The translations under genes were made by a program, and so were the position numbers. A stretch of 64,000 bases of DNA. Origin: Methylocystis sp. Sn-Cys (GTDB lineage Bacteria > Pseudomonadota > Alphaproteobacteria > Rhizobiales > Beijerinckiaceae). Below, piece after piece: positions 2,940 to 22,351 of the stretch (position 1 is the stretch's first letter; each line of letters opens with the position of its first letter). Under the pieces are notes generated by a model. It had not been told where the DNA came from. It searched no databases and was given only the letters and a program-made list of their open reading frames with translations. The stretch covers positions 186,001 through 250,000 of the forward strand of contig NZ_JAERVJ010000003.1 of the NCBI RefSeq assembly GCF_016745395.1, in the 5' to 3' direction.

Positions 2940-3318
2940 TGCGAGCCGGCGGCTTTACCGTGGCCGCTCTCGCGAGCGGCGCCCTTTGCATATATTCATC
3001 CTGCCCAATTAGACCGGTCTCGAGGCAACAATTTTGCGAGGCGCTCGAGCGCCCTGCGCCTGGGAGAGGCCGCAGGCGGCCTCTGCCGAGCTTATTGCAC
3101 GGCATGGCTGTCTAGAAATCAAGTCATATCCATTCAATCACTTATTGCTGAAGTATATAGTCAAGCTGTTACAGTATATATTTATGAGAAAGAAGTTTGA
3201 TTCTTGTACTATGTATTAACTCTATAATAAACTCGCAAAATAGTCAACTTTTTGCCAACATTATGCCATGAGATCCATGCAATACTTAATTGTTGTAATT
3301 ATTAGGAGTAAAAATGAC
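2940..3318. promoter_or_regulatory. AT-rich intergenic leader upstream of the acyltransferase/diiron pair
   Basis: From about 3115 to 3318 the composition shifts sharply to AT (for example runs such as TATATATTTATGAG and CTATAATAAAC) in an otherwise GC-rich chromosome. I see no convincing gene here. It probably holds the promoter of the downstream pair. The composition break also suggests the left end of a horizontally acquired segment. Confidence 0.5.
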
Positions 3319-4011
3319 ATGATAGCCAGCGACATTCTACCAACATTACGCGTTGTTTCGCTTCCCGGCGCCAACCCGTCGTCTGCTCAATTGAGCGACT
3401 ACAAAAGCGCTTACGCCATGTGGAAGATGGTCTGGTCGGAGACATTCAGGGAGCTGGATGGGCTCGACAAAATGTTCTCGGACGATTTCGCCCGGCAAGA
3501 CGAAATCCTCTGCGTCTTTCGCGGCCCCGTATGTTTGGCGCTGGGCCTCATGCGCTGGCGGGATATCGAGCTCCCGAGCGTGCGCGAGGATTCCTATTTT
3601 CAGATGTGGCCCACGGAAGCCATCGATGGGCTGCGCGCCAATGGCAAAGACATCATCATCTGCTGCAATTTGACAATCCATCCGATGGCGCGGAGCAACT
3701 CCCTCGGGCTGCCGATGAAAGACGTCATGATGGGCCTTCTCATCCAGCGCTTTTTGGAGTCGGGCGCCGACGCCATGACGGGCGCCATGCGCGCCGATCG
3801 CGGCATGCACAAGACGACCTATCGGCTCGGCGCGACGCCTCTGGCGACCGGTTTGGTCCACCACAATTCGCCGGTCGATCTCGTCGCCTTCTTTCCGCAA
3901 AACATGACCGGCGGGGAAGCGGAGGTTGCCCGCGCAGTACGGTACCTCTGGGGCGTCAAGCGGCAACATCCCATCCAAAGGGCTCGATACAAGGGGGCGA
4001 AAAATGCGTGA
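3319..4011 (+). CDS. Possible LuxI/FeeM-like N-acyltransferase (GNAT fold)
   Basis: A 230-residue protein that I place only tentatively. Residues 45-80 (ELDGLDKMFSDDF, then DEILCVFRGPVCLALGLMRW) resemble the acidic patch plus central strand of autoinducer and N-acyl amino-acid synthases. RGMHKTTYRLGATPL (161-175) resembles the GNAT C-terminal substrate strand. Such enzymes move an acyl chain from acyl-ACP to an amine. The start at 3319 is chosen for an AGGAG ten bases upstream; earlier in-frame starts lack one. The stop overlaps the next gene by eight bases, so the two are co-translated. Alternative: an uncharacterised acetyltransferase. Confidence 0.5.
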   Translation: MIASDILPTLRVVSLPGANPSSAQLSDYKSAYAMWKMVWSETFRELDGLDKMFSDDFARQDEILCVFRGPVCLALGLMRWRDIELPSVREDSYFQMWPTEAIDGLRANGKDIIICCNLTIHPMARSNSLGLPMKDVMMGLLIQRFLESGADAMTGAMRADRGMHKTTYRLGATPLATGLVHHNSPVDLVAFFPQNMTGGEAEVARAVRYLWGVKRQHPIQRARYKGAKNA

Positions 4012-4633
4012 AGCGCTCGATGTTCTTCTCAACAACGTGAAAAAAGAAATGTCGGCATGCCCTTGGGAAAATCCCTACGCCTACGCCGATTTTCTCGCGC
4101 AGACCTATTACTACGTCTGCCACTCGACGCGGCTTTTGGGTCTTGCGGCGGGCCTTTGCCGGGTCGACAGAGACCTGCTTCACCGCCGCTTCGTTCAGCA
4201 TATCGGCGAGGAAAAACTGCATGAGCGCCTGGCGTTGAACGATCTGCGCGGCCTGGGGTCGAAGCTCGAGGACTTTCCCGAACATTCCATAACAAAGGCG
4301 TTTTACGAGTCGCAATACTACAAGATCGAGCGCCTCGATCCGACCGCGCTCTTTGGTTACATCCTTCTCCTGGAAGGCGTCGCGGTGTCCGTTTGCCCTG
4401 AAATCTATCAGCGCGTTTTGCGCGCGCACGGCAAGCGCTGCGCCAACTTCTTGAGGGTTCATGTCGAGGAGGACGTCGATCATCTGCCGAAAGCCTTCGC
4501 CCAGCTCGAGGGCCTGTCGGCGAGCCAGAAGAGCGACATTCTGGTAAACATGGCCCAGACCGCCGATCTTTACTGCCAGATCATCTCGCAGGCGGCTCGA
4601 GGCCGGAGCGTCGAGCGCGCGAGGGCGGCTTAG
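4004..4633 (+). CDS. Haem-oxygenase-like diiron protein (iron-containing redox enzyme family)
   Basis: A 209-residue all-helical protein starting at ATG 4004, with a GGGGG ribosome-binding site inside the preceding gene. Candidate metal ligands lie where haem-oxygenase-like diiron oxidases keep them: GEEKLHE (Glu70, His73), Glu124 in LLLEGVA, and HVEEDVDH (His153, Asp157, His160). Members of this superfamily oxidise amino acids, fatty acids or other small substrates with O2. Coupling to the acyltransferase-like gene suggests the two act on the same metabolite, perhaps an acylated amino acid or its precursor. The substrate is unknown. Confidence 0.6.
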   Translation: MREALDVLLNNVKKEMSACPWENPYAYADFLAQTYYYVCHSTRLLGLAAGLCRVDRDLLHRRFVQHIGEEKLHERLALNDLRGLGSKLEDFPEHSITKAFYESQYYKIERLDPTALFGYILLLEGVAVSVCPEIYQRVLRAHGKRCANFLRVHVEEDVDHLPKAFAQLEGLSASQKSDILVNMAQTADLYCQIISQAARGRSVERARAA

Positions 4634-18220: not shown

Positions 18221-18274
18221 CACATTTAGAAAAACCACGCCGTCCTGGCGCGCGGCGTGTTATCATCCTGCGCC

Positions 18275-18886
18275 ATGAACCCACATCTGCGACCAGAGGC
18301 TTTGCCTCTCGTCACCCAGGCCGCCGACGGCATGCTCCGGCGGCGCTTCAGCGTGGGCGAGATCGAGGCGATGGTCCGCGTCGGCATCATCGACGCGGAC
18401 GAGCGCTTCGAGCTGATCGGCGGGGACGTCGTGCCCATGTCGCCAAAAGGCGCCCGGCATGAGTGGATCAAAATTGAGCTCAACCGTTTCTTTCAAAGAG
18501 TGGCGCCGCAGCATTTGACCGTCGCGCCGGAGACAATGCTGCGTCTCGACGCCTCAACCTTCGTCGAGCCCGATTTCTGCGTCTTTCGGCGCGACCTCGA
18601 TTTGAGCGCGCTCGACGGAGCGGCGGTTTTGCTTGCGATCGAGGTCGCGGATTCGAGCCTGAATTACGACAAGGGCCGCAAGATCGGCATTTACGCCGCC
18701 TATGGCATTCGAGAAGTCTGGGTCGTCGACGCCCTGCGAGCGACGATCTGGGTTCATCGCCATTTGGGGGCGGCAGGCTATGCGGAAATTATAGAGGCGC
18801 CGGCGAGCGCGGTGGTAACGCCGATGCTTGCGCCCGAGCTTGCTGTCCGCTTGGCGGATTTGGGCGTCGGCCCGGTTTCGGTTTGA
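18275..18886 (+). CDS. Uma2-family (DUF820) putative endonuclease
   Basis: A 203-residue protein of the Uma2/DUF820 family, which has a restriction-endonuclease-like fold. Visible blocks are FSVGEIEAMVRVGII, ERFELIGGDVVPMSP, FVEPDFCVFRRD (acidic catalytic Asp), AIEVADSSLNYDKGRKIGIYAAYGIREVWVVD (Glu and Lys of the PD-ExK-like core). ATG 18275 is chosen over a GTG 18 bases earlier. Members are abundant in cyanobacteria and some proteobacteria and their biological role is unclear. It is followed by a family D repeat. Confidence 0.78.
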   Translation: MNPHLRPEALPLVTQAADGMLRRRFSVGEIEAMVRVGIIDADERFELIGGDVVPMSPKGARHEWIKIELNRFFQRVAPQHLTVAPETMLRLDASTFVEPDFCVFRRDLDLSALDGAAVLLAIEVADSSLNYDKGRKIGIYAAYGIREVWVVDALRATIWVHRHLGAAGYAEIIEAPASAVVTPMLAPELAVRLADLGVGPVSV

Positions 18887-18899
18887 TACGAGATCCGCT

Positions 18900-19018
18900 T
18901 GATCGGTTCGGTGTCATTCCCGACGCTCGCGAAGCGAGCGATCGGAAATTCAGAACCAAACCAGCGCTTTTGTGGCTCTGGATTCCCGATCGCGCTGCGC
19001 GCGTCGGGAATGACAAGG
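18900..19018. repeat. Dispersed palindromic repeat, family D
   Basis: Two facing modules: TCATTCCCGACGCTCGCGAA / GCGAGCGATCGG, then CCAGCGC...GGCTCTGGATTCCCGATCGC ending GTCGGGAATGACA. The ends are inverted copies of each other. Related elements occur at 520-584 and 39930-40052. Confidence 0.7.
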
Positions 19019-19096
19019 CCGAATGCGAGCTGTTCAAACGGTAACGGTGTGAGTGCCCGTCCGACCGTCGAGCCGTGAACACGGCGCGATTTCGAT

Positions 19097-19306
19097 TCAG
19101 GCGTCGATATACTCGGCGACTGCGGCTGGAGCCGGAACCGGAAGCCCGTCCGCTTCGAGCCCCTCGATGTGGAAACGAATGGCGTCGCGGATCTCTTGCT
19201 TAATCTCTTCCAGCGTGGCGCCCGTGGCGATGCAACCGGGCAAATCTGGGACGTAGGCGGAGAAATTACCGGCTGCTTTTTCAATGACGATAGCGTAGCG
19301 CATCAT
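19097..19306 (-). CDS. HicB-like antitoxin, without a HicA partner
   Basis: A 69-residue protein with the HicB fold signature: MRYAIVIEKAAGNFSAYVPDLPGCIATGATLEEIKQEIRDAI. Two ATGs are adjacent at 19301-19306 with AAAGGAC upstream. HicB neutralises the HicA mRNA interferase, which is normally encoded just upstream. Here the upstream space contains only a terminator hairpin and the end of an unrelated gene, so this is an orphan. It lacks the C-terminal DNA-binding domain found in longer HicB proteins. Confidence 0.8.
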   Translation of the reverse strand: MMRYAIVIEKAAGNFSAYVPDLPGCIATGATLEEIKQEIRDAIRFHIEGLEADGLPVPAPAAVAEYIDA

Positions 19307-19342
19307 TTTTTGTCCTTTATCCCCGTCGTACCCTGCTAGAAA

Positions 19343-19368
19343 AAAGCCCGGCTCAAGGGCCGGGCTTT
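19343..19368 (-). terminator. Rho-independent terminator
   Basis: AAAGCCCGGC and GCCGGGCTTT form a perfect ten-base-pair stem with a six-base loop, followed on the minus strand by a T-run. It would stop transcripts of the 316-residue gene before hicB and could work in both directions. Confidence 0.85.
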
Positions 19369-19391
19369 CTGATAGATAAACGGTAACTAGC

Positions 19392-20342
19392 TCAGTTCTT
19401 TGTGGCAGAGCGCCGAGCTTTTTTCAAAAAAACGTCGATGTAGGCGCTTAGGTCCTCAACGCTGTCTGCTGACAAGTTCTCAGGAAAACGAATTGTAACG
19501 TCCCCTTCTTGCAATGCGAACTTTTCTTCGCGCTCTCCGAGAGCAGGAGCCGCTGGGTTTGCACTAGCGAGATGTGTCGCCGGCTTAGGTGGAGCCGCTC
19601 CTGCGGTATGATCCGAACCTTGCGCGATAACCTTAACTTCATTCATCGGGATGCCTGTTTGGCTCTCCGCTACCCATAGCCATTGGCGGTCTTCTGAAAC
19701 GCCGACGACTGTAGCCGGGTTCCTAAACTGATCGACACCCCCGCTAGTCCACTGAACAACGTCGCCGACCTTAGCATTTGGACCTTTCGCGGCGAGCGCG
19801 GGCTCGCTCCTATCTTCTTTCTTATCATCAACGCCCGTTTTTGCGAATCCTATCGTATCATCAAAGACGCGTAGAAAGCTTCGCGCGCCCTCTTCTGTGA
19901 AGCCTCTCTCTACATGCAGTTCGCTTATGCATATTCCGTCGGCGGGACGGCCCCCTTTCCAGATCTCTGCATATTCGGCGATAAGCTTCGGGCGGGTCGC
20001 CGCTTCCTGCAATGCGGCGTCCTTTGCACCCGGTCGTTGATCCTGAAGCGCCCGGAAGCCAAGATCTGAAATCTTGAATTTACGTGAGTCACCAGATCCT
20101 TGATCCTCAATGAGCCCGAAGGCAATAAGCGCCCCGATCGTCTGCAATGTCGCACTGCTTTTGGCGGCAAGCCCCCACGCAGCGGCGACGTCTGCGGTTC
20201 GAGCCTCATGCCTCTTCGCATGCAGGTATAGTTCTCCGGCTCGTTCCAGGGCCTTCGGGAGCCCGATGTATGGGAAAGAGGGGCTACGCTCTTTCTTGTT
20301 TGCAGGAGACGCCGCAGCGGAGCCGACCTTATCGTCTGCCAT
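19392..20342 (-). CDS. Hypothetical protein with winged-helix-like N-terminus
   Basis: A 316-residue soluble protein that I cannot name. Residues about 25-100 look like a winged helix (AADVAAAWGLAAKSSATLQTIGALIAFGLI, then RKFKISDLGFRALQ). The middle region (about 190-235) resembles a short beta-barrel (GDVVQWTSGGVDQFRNPATVVGV). The C-terminus returns to a helical tail. AAGG lies upstream of ATG 20342. Codon use is less GC-biased than its neighbours. A palindrome at 20389 probably controls it. The setting next to IS remnants suggests mobile-element cargo. Confidence 0.55.
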   Translation of the reverse strand: MADDKVGSAAASPANKKERSPSFPYIGLPKALERAGELYLHAKRHEARTADVAAAWGLAAKSSATLQTIGALIAFGLIEDQGSGDSRKFKISDLGFRALQDQRPGAKDAALQEAATRPKLIAEYAEIWKGGRPADGICISELHVERGFTEEGARSFLRVFDDTIGFAKTGVDDKKEDRSEPALAAKGPNAKVGDVVQWTSGGVDQFRNPATVVGVSEDRQWLWVAESQTGIPMNEVKVIAQGSDHTAGAAPPKPATHLASANPAAPALGEREEKFALQEGDVTIRFPENLSADSVEDLSAYIDVFLKKARRSATKN

Positions 20343-20388
20343 CTGATAAACCTTTCGCCGAGCCGCGTGAAATTGGCTGATTGCTTAT

Positions 20389-20404
20389 CTGATAGCACTA
20401 TCAG
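20389..20404. promoter_or_regulatory. Palindromic operator candidate
   Basis: CTGATAG and CTATCAG face each other across two bases. The site lies 47 bases before the 316-residue gene on one strand and seven bases before a good -35 box on the other, so one regulator could control both directions. Confidence 0.5.
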
Positions 20405-20410
20405 TCCTGA

Positions 20411-20439
20411 TTGACAAGATTCCGACGTGGCCGTAACAT
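20411..20439 (+). promoter_or_regulatory. Sigma-70 type promoter
   Basis: TTGACA (20411-20416), a 17-base spacer and TAACAT (20434-20439) form a near-consensus promoter. The predicted transcript starts a few bases before a strong GGAGGAG ribosome-binding site and a short reading frame. Confidence 0.55.
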
Positions 20440-20460
20440 AAGAATCAGATTGGAGGAGTG

Positions 20461-20517
20461 ATGGTCAGACGTGTTCAGCCCCGCCGCCGTCCCGCCCGGT
20501 GCCGCAGGGGCTACTAA
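20461..20517 (+). CDS. Putative 18-residue Arg-rich peptide
   Basis: A very short frame (MVRRVQPRRRPARCRRGY) with an excellent Shine-Dalgarno (GGAGGAG at 20452-20458) just downstream of a good promoter. Seven or more of its 18 residues are Arg. It ends directly at a strong hairpin. It could be a leader peptide whose translation affects the hairpin, or a small basic protein. No homologue is known to me. Confidence 0.35.
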   Translation: MVRRVQPRRRPARCRRGY

Positions 20518-20521
20518 CGAA

Positions 20522-20556
20522 GAAGGCCGCACCCGCGCCAACGGGTAACGGCCTTC
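20522..20556 (+). promoter_or_regulatory. Structured RNA hairpin between two short frames
   Basis: GAAGGCCG pairs with CGGCCTTC and an inner ACCCG pairs with CGGGT, leaving a six-base loop. No T-run follows, so it is more likely an attenuator-like or stabilising structure than a terminator. It starts five bases after the stop of the 18-residue frame. Confidence 0.45.
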
Positions 20557-20667
20557 GTGGTGGCAAAGCAACCGGGTGGTTAGGCCACGATTCCTGCGCA
20601 CACTGCACCGCAAGAATCGCACGTCTGCCGCCCACCTTGCAACTCCTTTCTATGAGAGGGGTGGATC

Positions 20668-20763
20668 ATGGCTAAACGAGCCTGCCATAGCGTGCGCGCC
20701 TATACGCGTATCCGCTTTGGCCGCCTTGAGCATGTCAGCGCCCATTCACGCTGCTGCGGTTAG
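20668..20763 (+). CDS. Putative 31-residue Cys/His peptide
   Basis: A short frame with a GAGAGGGG ribosome-binding site. The product is basic and has Cys6, His7, His22, His26, Cys29 and Cys30, an arrangement that could bind a metal ion such as zinc. It shares the promoter at 20411 with the 18-residue frame and is followed within 35 bases by a strong terminator, so a self-contained transcription unit is likely. I know no homologue. A decayed reading frame overlaps it on the other strand. Confidence 0.4.
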   Translation: MAKRACHSVRAYTRIRFGRLEHVSAHSRCCG

Positions 20764-20974
20764 GACTTTCGTCTGATTGACGCTTAGAGCGTTGTGGCCG
20801 CCGCTGGGGTTCCTGCGGCGGTTTTTTCGTTTTCGCACGCTGGATGCTTTCCTCAACCTCTGTCAGGTCAGTCTGAAGCGCGCGGGCTAGAAACTCCCCA
20901 AAGGCCATATCTAGCCTCAGGGGCGGTTTAGTTTTCTTCTTCTCGCGATCAGCGCCCTGCAGGTCAGTGGGCCC
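20735..20974 (-). pseudogene. Remnant of a small DUF-like gene, 5' end lost
   Basis: An open minus-strand frame without a start codon reads KKKTKPPLRLDMAFGEFLAR and ends after a Pro/Arg/Lys-rich tail. The RLDMxFxExL pattern is typical of small Rhizobiales proteins of plasmid or phage origin. The 5' end meets the IS1595 remnant, which suggests truncation by insertion or deletion. Confidence 0.35.
20798..20827 (+). terminator. Rho-independent terminator
   Basis: CCGCCGC and GCGGCGG form a seven-base-pair stem with a ten-base loop, followed by six T. It closes the tiny transcription unit that begins at 20411. Confidence 0.85.
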
Positions 20975-21060
20975 TCAACGCAAGGCGCTTTAGGAGCGCC
21001 CAGACGCTTTCGATCGTGTTGGTGTTAACGAAGCCGCCGAACTCATTTATATGTCCCTAG
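20964..21060 (-). mobile_element. IS1595-family transposase remnant
   Basis: Translation of the minus strand gives HINEFGGFVNTNTIESVWALLKR before a stop. The NTNTIESVWALLKR block is the conserved C-terminal core of IS1595 (ISXO2-like) transposases. Only about 30 codons remain, with no inverted repeats that I can define, so this is a decayed insertion sequence rather than an active one. Confidence 0.75.
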
Positions 21061-21079
21061 AAGAATCCAGGCTTACCGG

Positions 21080-22351
21080 CTAGCTCCGCATCTTCTCCCT
21101 CGTCTCCGGCATCGTCGCATAAACAACCAGCGACACGAAAATCGCCGCGCTCGCATACCAATAGAACCAGCTCTCATGGCCCTGCGTCTTGAACCACAGC
21201 GCCACATATTCCGCCGAGCCGCCGAACACCGAGACGGTGGCGGCATAGGGCAAAGCGACGCCGGTCACGCGGATCGCAGCGGGGAAGAGTTCGGCCTTCA
21301 CCACCGCATTGATCGACGTGTAGAGCCCGACGATCAGCCAAGCCACGCAGATGAGGCCGAAGGCTGTCCAGGCATTGCGCGCGTCTTGAATGGCTGTCAG
21401 TAGCGGCGCGGTGCAGAGCGTTCCAAGGAGGCCGAAGGCGATGAGCATGGGGCGGCGTCCGATCCGGTCGGAGAGCGCCCCATAGATCGGTTGCAGTAGG
21501 AGCGCGAAAAGCAGAGAGCCAGCCGAAATCCATGTGGTCTCGGCAGCGCTCAGCCCCGCCGAGAGCTTGAGGAACTTCTGCATATAAGTCGTATAGACAT
21601 AGAAAGCGATCGTGCCGCCCAGCGTCAGCCCCACCACTGTAGCCGTCTCGCGTTTATGCGAGAGCAGCGCGTGTAGCGAGCCGCGCGTCTTCTCCGCGCG
21701 CGCCGCTTCGAAAGCGGCGGTTTCGACAAGATCGCGGCGCATCAGCAGAGCGACGATGGCGAGAAGCGCGCCGATGGCGAAAGGAATGCGCCAGCCCCAT
21801 GCGCGCAGCGCATGGTCGTCGAGCAAGACATTCTGCAGCACGAGCAGCACCACAAGGGCGAGGAGCTGTCCCGCAATCATCGTGACATATTGGAAGCTCG
21901 CGTAGAAACCACGCTTTTCCGGCGTCGCCGTCTCCGCGAGATAGGTGGCGCTCGACCCATATTCGCCGCCCAGACTCGCGCCCTGCAGCAGCCGCGCGAA
22001 CAGCAGCAGCGCCGGCGCCGCCGCGCCGATCGTGGCGTAGGTCGGCGCAAAGGCGATGATGAGCGAGCCTGCGCACATCAGAAGCACGGAGAGCATCAAA
22101 GCCGCGCGCCTGCCACGCCCGTCGCCAATGCGCCCGAAAATATAGGCGCCGATGGGCCGCATGAAAAAGCCGAGCGCGAAGACGCCCGAAGCTGAAAGCA
22201 TCTGCGCCACGGGATCGTCGCCGGGAAAGAAAGCGTCGGCGAAATAGAGGGAGAACGCCGAATAGACGTAGAAGTCGAACCACTCCACCAGATTGCCGAT
22301 CGAGCCAACGAGAATGGCGCGGATGCGCGCTTTGTCGTCGGCGCCGAGCAT
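21080..22351 (-). CDS. MHS-family MFS transporter (KgtP-like)
   Basis: A 423-residue inner-membrane symporter with about twelve helices. It opens with GSIGNLVEWFDFYVYSAFSLYFA, the metabolite:H+ symporter signature, and has the MFS motif GRIGDGRGRRAAL between helices 2 and 3, LLQGASLGGEYGSSATYLAE, and GALSDRIGRRPML in the second half. These match the alpha-ketoglutarate permease subgroup, though substrate is inferred. Its ATG overlaps the stop of the DUF1345 gene by one base, so it is the third gene of an ispA-led operon. Confidence 0.87.
   Translation of the reverse strand: MLGADDKARIRAILVGSIGNLVEWFDFYVYSAFSLYFADAFFPGDDPVAQMLSASGVFALGFFMRPIGAYIFGRIGDGRGRRAALMLSVLLMCAGSLIIAFAPTYATIGAAAPALLLFARLLQGASLGGEYGSSATYLAETATPEKRGFYASFQYVTMIAGQLLALVVLLVLQNVLLDDHALRAWGWRIPFAIGALLAIVALLMRRDLVETAAFEAARAEKTRGSLHALLSHKRETATVVGLTLGGTIAFYVYTTYMQKFLKLSAGLSAAETTWISAGSLLFALLLQPIYGALSDRIGRRPMLIAFGLLGTLCTAPLLTAIQDARNAWTAFGLICVAWLIVGLYTSINAVVKAELFPAAIRVTGVALPYAATVSVFGGSAEYVALWFKTQGHESWFYWYASAAIFVSLVVYATMPETREKMRS

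Follow-up and report, generated by a model that had tools for sequence, protein, structure and literature searches.

Comparative evidence for a conserved micro-protein gene and a structured leader RNA in the relic of an IS1595-family transposon from Methylocystis

Introduction

What do two very short reading frames encode when they lie among closely spaced signals for transcription and translation, and to what kind of element do they belong? The question is raised by a segment of the window, the stretch of 64,000 nucleotides of Methylocystis DNA analyzed here, which lies in a genome of 4.02 Mb; the segment is flanked on one side by a gene for a HicB-like antitoxin (19097-19306) and on the other by a transporter-like gene (21080-22351). 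A first-pass annotation, made from the letters alone, had described a palindrome, a promoter, two frames, a hairpin and a terminator, and had considered a leader-regulated small protein, a bacteriocin-like peptide or an sRNA. All of these signals are present at the positions it gave (Table 1), and its view that so ordered a set is unlikely by chance agrees with the conservation of the longer frame, the covariation of the leader and the recurrence in relatives of an upstream start codon with its Shine-Dalgarno sequence (SD).

Results

The sigma-70-like promoter, with its TTGACA (20411-20416) and TAACAT (20434-20439) boxes, was the sole promoter-like site found in 20340-20900, when 0.2 such sites were expected from shuffles of that sequence, and similar TTGAC boxes, read by eye, stand upstream of several relatives' leaders. 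The terminator was not listed by our scan of the same interval because its 10-nt loop exceeds the limits of the scan. The palindrome could possibly serve as an operator between the divergent genes.

Table 1. Features of the segment and its surroundings (positions in the window)
Feature	Position	Strand	Evidence
Inserted islet, decayed IS1595-family transposon relic	~19324-21070 (ends approximate)	none	comparison with same-species genome G164
Divergent 316-aa protein, predicted N-terminal winged-helix domain (partner family A)	19392-20342	-	homologues, AlphaFold, Foldseek
Palindrome CTGATAGCACTATCAG	20389-20404	none	sequence; between the divergent genes
Sigma-70-like promoter, TTGACA-17-TAACAT	20411-20439	+	promoter scan
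uORF, 18 codons, MVRRVQPRRRPARCRRGY	20461-20517 (ATG 20461 to TAA 20517)	+	recurrence of start and SD
Leader helix P1, GCCCC/GGGGC	20478-20511	+	covariation; four core pairs 97% paired
Leader helix P2 (hairpin), GAAGGCCG/CGGCCTTC	20522-20556	+	two-sided changes at 5/8 pairs
Leader helix P3, GGGTGG/CCGCCC, inner stem CGATTCCTGCG/CGCAAGAATCG	20574-20633	+	outer stem 96%, inner stem 60% paired
Helix P4, predicted to cover the 31-aa gene's ribosome-binding site	20642-20662	+	class-A leaders
31-residue micro-protein gene, MAKRACHSVRAYTRIRFGRLEHVSAHSRCCG, phrog_21154 family	20668-20763	+	homologues, third-position bias, AlphaFold
Remnant of small 'KKPP' ORF	20792-20941	-	tblastn 2e-7
Intrinsic terminator, CCGCCGC, 10-nt loop, GCGGCGG, T6	20798-20827 (hairpin 20798-20821)	+	by eye
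Two IS1595 transposase fragments (gene start and NTIESVWALLKR segment)	20945-21025	-	blastn with L069 and L079; internal deletion

Sequence comparison indicates that the 31-codon frame, whose ribosome-binding site is GAGAGGGG, is a real gene conserved as a protein. The first-pass annotation had suggested searching for conservation of this peptide, and a search that covered relatives, 85,000 species genomes and viral contigs returned a conserved family with more than 60 relatives in Proteobacteria, phages and plasmids (49 of the 397 family genomes, 66 genome loci and 21 viral loci). Its members are proteins of 25-50 residues that share the pattern V-x-x-Y-x-R-x-R-F-G-R-x-E-x-V-x-x-H-x-R, with eight residues invariant in 71 sequences. 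Among pairs identical at 12 or more of 17 core residues, the differences at codon positions 1, 2 and 3 numbered 10575, 7051 and 27639, respectively, that is, 61% at the third position. Since the frame is under codon-level selection, the proposal of an sRNA alone is not supported.

The family corresponds to the profile phrog_21154, which was matched by 10/10 members tested (E down to 1e-9) and by the window peptide over residues 8-29 (E 3.6e-7). The earlier statement that the peptides match no family is therefore correct for Pfam, NCBIfam and Rfam, where the 31-residue peptide had no match, as it had none in PADLOC, but it does not hold for phrog_21154. This profile was built from phages and has no function attached, and its description lacks the transposon context, the leader RNA and the Cys-pair subgroup that we found; our literature search returned no paper that mentions it. 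With the window peptide alone as query, tblastn of phages and plasmids matched only M. rosea pGW6_1. The peptide family and its transposon context are variants, not previously described, of known kinds.

With 71 relatives as input, AlphaFold predicted four short strands (pLDDT 89) for the peptide, which is basic (7 Arg/Lys against 1 Glu). Solved structures gave no sequence match, and Foldseek no credible one (best E 5). Furthermore, an N-terminal and a C-terminal Cys co-occur in the family: 35 of the 44 members with the first also have the second, against 2 of the 58 without it (Fisher test, 1e-16 with no correction for shared descent and 6e-5 in a reduced set). Such a pattern would be expected if a disulfide or a metal joins the two ends of the peptide. 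A separate set of members (e.g. L094, L095, L128 and L131) ends in QLSFDF/QLTLF-like tails that resemble beta-clamp-binding motifs.

Upstream of the peptide gene, covariation among relatives argues for a conserved structured RNA in the leaders of class A. This leader is about 230 nt long and has four stem-loops, three of them with covariation and the last predicted to cover the ribosome-binding site; this structure is shown for the leaders that accompany partner family A, those of phage and plasmid members being of other kinds. Over 15 leaders of the same type, 83.6% of the cells in P1 and P2 were paired, with 14 two-sided changes, a level reached by none of 500 shuffles (0/500), and sliding the helices lowered pairing to 31-59%. 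For P3, 73% pairing was found against at most 46% in slid controls, and its outer and inner stems together had two-sided changes at 8 pairs. ATCGCA, considered as a free-standing motif, was rejected, as it forms the 3' side of the inner stem of P3. The folding of the window leader itself is only modestly more stable than that of its shuffles (z = -2.57; 3/200 as stable), so the case for structure rests on the relatives.

The SD lies within the 3' arm of the P4 hairpin in 14 of the 15 class-A leaders. Sequestration of the SD as a property of the whole family was rejected: pooled over 97 leaders of all classes, SD pairing was 0.64 against 0.61 in shuffles (P = 0.13), and the window leader fell below its own shuffles in this test. 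We therefore claim SD covering for class-A leaders only. A covariance model of P1-P2 from the 15 leaders retrieved 11 family genomes at E < 1e-10, with the peptide downstream in all, and its weaker matches included Rhodobacterales (Paracoccus-type) loci outside the training set with the same spacing to the peptide; the weak matches L202-L204 were dismissed for having no peptide downstream. In Rfam the window matched only a tRNA elsewhere, and the leader region reached at best 21.3 bits against a gathering score of 45. The leader RNA, as well as its combination with the peptide and the transposon, appears to be undescribed.

The ATG of the upstream frame (uORF) is preceded by GGAGGAG, and 12 of the 15 leaders have a start codon with an SD in the same frame with respect to P1, when 0.81 are expected in shuffled sequence; the two other frames had such a pair in 1 and 3 leaders. 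This excess led us to drop the idea that the uORF is an artefact of the GC-rich hairpin. The uORF codons had no third-position bias, the amino-acid sequence they encode is unconserved, and the length of the uORF in relatives runs from 3 to more than 30 codons. The act of translation, rather than its product, thus appears to be selected, and such variation in length means that a single stalling codon cannot be the sensor. Of the two tiny peptides of the first-pass annotation, only the 31-residue one stands as a gene, since for the 18-residue product it is the initiation site and frame that are conserved; synonymous-biased conservation, whose absence from both frames was to count against the annotation, was likewise found in the longer frame and is lacking in the shorter.

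The gene divergent from the peptide has a homologue in 24 loci (the window and one duplicate counted), nearly always in the same divergent arrangement. Its product had no Pfam match; the AlphaFold model (pLDDT 85) gave weak Foldseek matches to winged-helix DNA binders (E 0.02-0.1, probability up to 0.99-1.0). In 11 other loci the upstream gene encodes instead a protein of about 180 aa, weakly HARE-HTH-like in the member tested. Among the recurring neighbours of the peptide, which are winged-helix or HARE-like genes and a transposase, there is no exporter or immunity gene of the kind expected beside a bacteriocin.

In 15 loci an IS1595 transposase gene converges on the peptide gene at 241-342 nt downstream of the peptide start and is often preceded by a small ORF with the pattern EPPL.L.M.F.EAL.RF...P.EV.ESI.R.K.KKPP ('KKPP' ORF). 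This ORF, at about 3935-4120 (-) in L071, lies just before the transposase and did not match Pfam; in the window its 3' end overlaps with the terminator of the peptide gene. The transposase of the relatives matched PF12762 (7.7e-46) and PF12760 (3.6e-13; N-terminal zinc ribbon), and in eight relatives (L071, L077, L079, L128, L123, L136, L054 and L059) the element is bounded by inverted repeats with the pattern GG...TATATAC...TG and by exact 8-bp duplications. GG-starting inverted repeats and 8-bp duplications are the signature of the IS1595 family (PMC8101967), so the relatives share with this family (ISXO2-like transposase) the zinc ribbon, the repeats and the target duplications. Its members usually have a single transposase gene (PMC8101967), whereas the elements found here add two to three passenger genes and a regulatory RNA: between the inverted repeats, intact relatives hold the divergent winged-helix gene, the leader-peptide unit, the small ORF and the transposase. 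This arrangement indicates that the leader-peptide unit is cargo of IS1595-family transposons, and that the divergent gene and the downstream relic form one element with it, two points which the first-pass annotation had missed. Our literature search found no description of IS1595 cargo of such a kind.

Unlike these relatives, the window copy lacks the ends and most of the transposase. It retains the winged-helix gene, the leader, the peptide and the terminator, the small ORF and the transposase being present as fragments only. In the same-species genome G164 the flanks (window 18240-19323 and from 21071) lie 9 bp apart, which makes the islet of ~1.75 kb a strain-specific decayed insertion; no inverted repeats and no target duplication were found in the window copy, and comparison with the empty site gives no clean duplication. 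By sequence criteria, then, the window copy is a relic and not a working IS1595 member, and consequently it may no longer be expressed. Elsewhere in the window genome, G000:C8:726636-727064 (L165) matches the IS1595 transposase with an uninterrupted 308-aa frame and is a possible source of transposase in trans. Additionally, a high-copy repeat of ~165 bp, partly palindromic, occupies window 18881-19056 and has many further matches at ~80-90% identity, with 24 each in the window genome and in the same-species relative.

Discussion

Our comparisons suggest, with moderate confidence, that the segment represents the cargo-bearing half of a decayed IS1595-family transposon and encodes a basic 31-residue micro-protein, and that translation attenuation probably gates the synthesis of this protein. 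The first-pass proposal of a leader-regulated small protein finds good support in the comparative evidence, namely a conserved peptide family, a covarying leader, a conserved uORF start and an SD that falls within a predicted hairpin. In such a scheme the transcript would begin near 20446, and the conserved anatomy suggests that the divergent winged-helix protein would set transcription, perhaps via the palindrome. The same anatomy is consistent with a resting state in which P4 masks the SD ahead of the 31-aa frame and translation is low, while loading or stalling of ribosomes on the uORF would open P1 and P2, shift the downstream fold and free the SD. As for the peptide, our guess is that its most likely target is a nucleic acid, or machinery that acts on nucleic acids, and that such binding would serve the mobile element.

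A uORF controlling the occlusion of the next ribosome-binding site has been described for toiL-topAI of E. coli (PMC12121999), and by analogy the window-type leader may work in a similar way. Like toiL-topAI and the erm leaders, it has a uORF with its own SD, a long structured leader and the main ribosome-binding site in a predicted hairpin; it differs in that the uORF sequence is unconserved and the main gene is a 31-codon gene of a mobile element. If the leader senses translation stress, the cargo of a transposon would be wired to the ribosomes of its host. In addition, the locus brings together a widespread family of 25-50-residue proteins that annotation mostly passes over, an RNA that Rfam lacks and cargo carried by IS1595 transposons, three little-charted subjects which can be tested together.

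A bolder reading, which we hold as tentative and rather doubtful, is that these parts form a new kind of regulatory module of mobile elements, in which a stress-sensing leader with its uORF would release a folded protein of fewer than 35 residues, paired with an exchangeable winged-helix regulator. The protein would then be a sheet, possibly closed by a metal or a disulfide, and the module, having spread among transposons, temperate phages and plasmids, would inhibit or reprogram the host or rival elements.

Other explanations give the peptide or its leader a different role. It seems unlikely that the unit is a module for addiction or host inhibition, with the peptide as a type I-like toxin, a structured leader that silences its mRNA, and the uORF in the role that mok has in hok/mok. 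Residence in mobile elements, a self-occluding structured leader, a uORF and a very short ORF that has its own promoter and terminator would all fit a toxin, and there is precedent in toiL, which controls a toxin-antitoxin operon (PMC12121999). However, the peptide is basic and predicted to form a beta sheet, where most type I toxins form a helix in the membrane, it has no hydrophobic transmembrane segment such as theirs, and 20340-20900 holds no minus-strand promoter-like site that could drive an antisense RNA.

Somewhat less credible is autogenous control, for which the ribosomal proteins, which repress their own translation, are the model: the Arg-rich mini-sheet would bind its own leader and repress its own translation, its main target being other RNA or DNA. 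A basic sheet peptide and a conserved structured leader found only ahead of it are in line with this idea, but other family members keep the peptide without a class-A leader, so that leader binding cannot be a family-wide function.

We consider it improbable that the peptide is a replication-fork helper which anchors the element at the beta sliding clamp in the manner of many transposases. Transposases bind the clamp via a C-terminal Q-L-x-L-F motif (PMC4549789), and QLSFDF-like tails end 22 of the 103 distinct members; nevertheless, position 4 of the tail is mostly F, not L, and the tail is absent from the window peptide and from most transposon-borne members. Lastly, a non-coding RNA or a chance array of signals with no protein made from the 31-codon frame, which a strongly folded RNA with promoter and terminator might suggest, is very hard to credit and was rejected, given the conservation of the protein across phyla, the third-position bias and the relatives with the same peptide behind a different leader.

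Whatever the peptide does, members in lambdoid E. coli prophages and enterobacterial plasmids make its function open to study in laboratory strains. In the lambdoid phage vB_SosS_Oslo a member (L157:3956-4081) lies beside cI, in the position of rex, and the corresponding stretch (L190, about 3250-3400) recurs in prophages of E. coli O157:H7; a match to this stretch was found in 246 of 5426 E. coli genomes. The single record viewed lists no gene for the member. A further phage subgroup (L138, L144, L150 and L096:3989-4087), of the form RWRFGREEHV...RRWPNQLSFSF, is found on the opposite strand between structural genes, in a moron-like manner. On enterobacterial plasmids the members (L159:4971-5066, L160:4971-5066, L162, L163 and L164) are unannotated, and in five of six plasmids examined a convergent gene for an AAA family ATPase ends ~40-50 bp away from them. 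Hosts of plasmids with both the peptide and the ATPase are Klebsiella, E. coli, Enterobacter, Pantoea and Serratia, and the two plasmid ATPases that were scanned belong to AAA_13 and match the PADLOC candidate defence system PDC-S06, with a weaker match to the anticodon nuclease PrrC.
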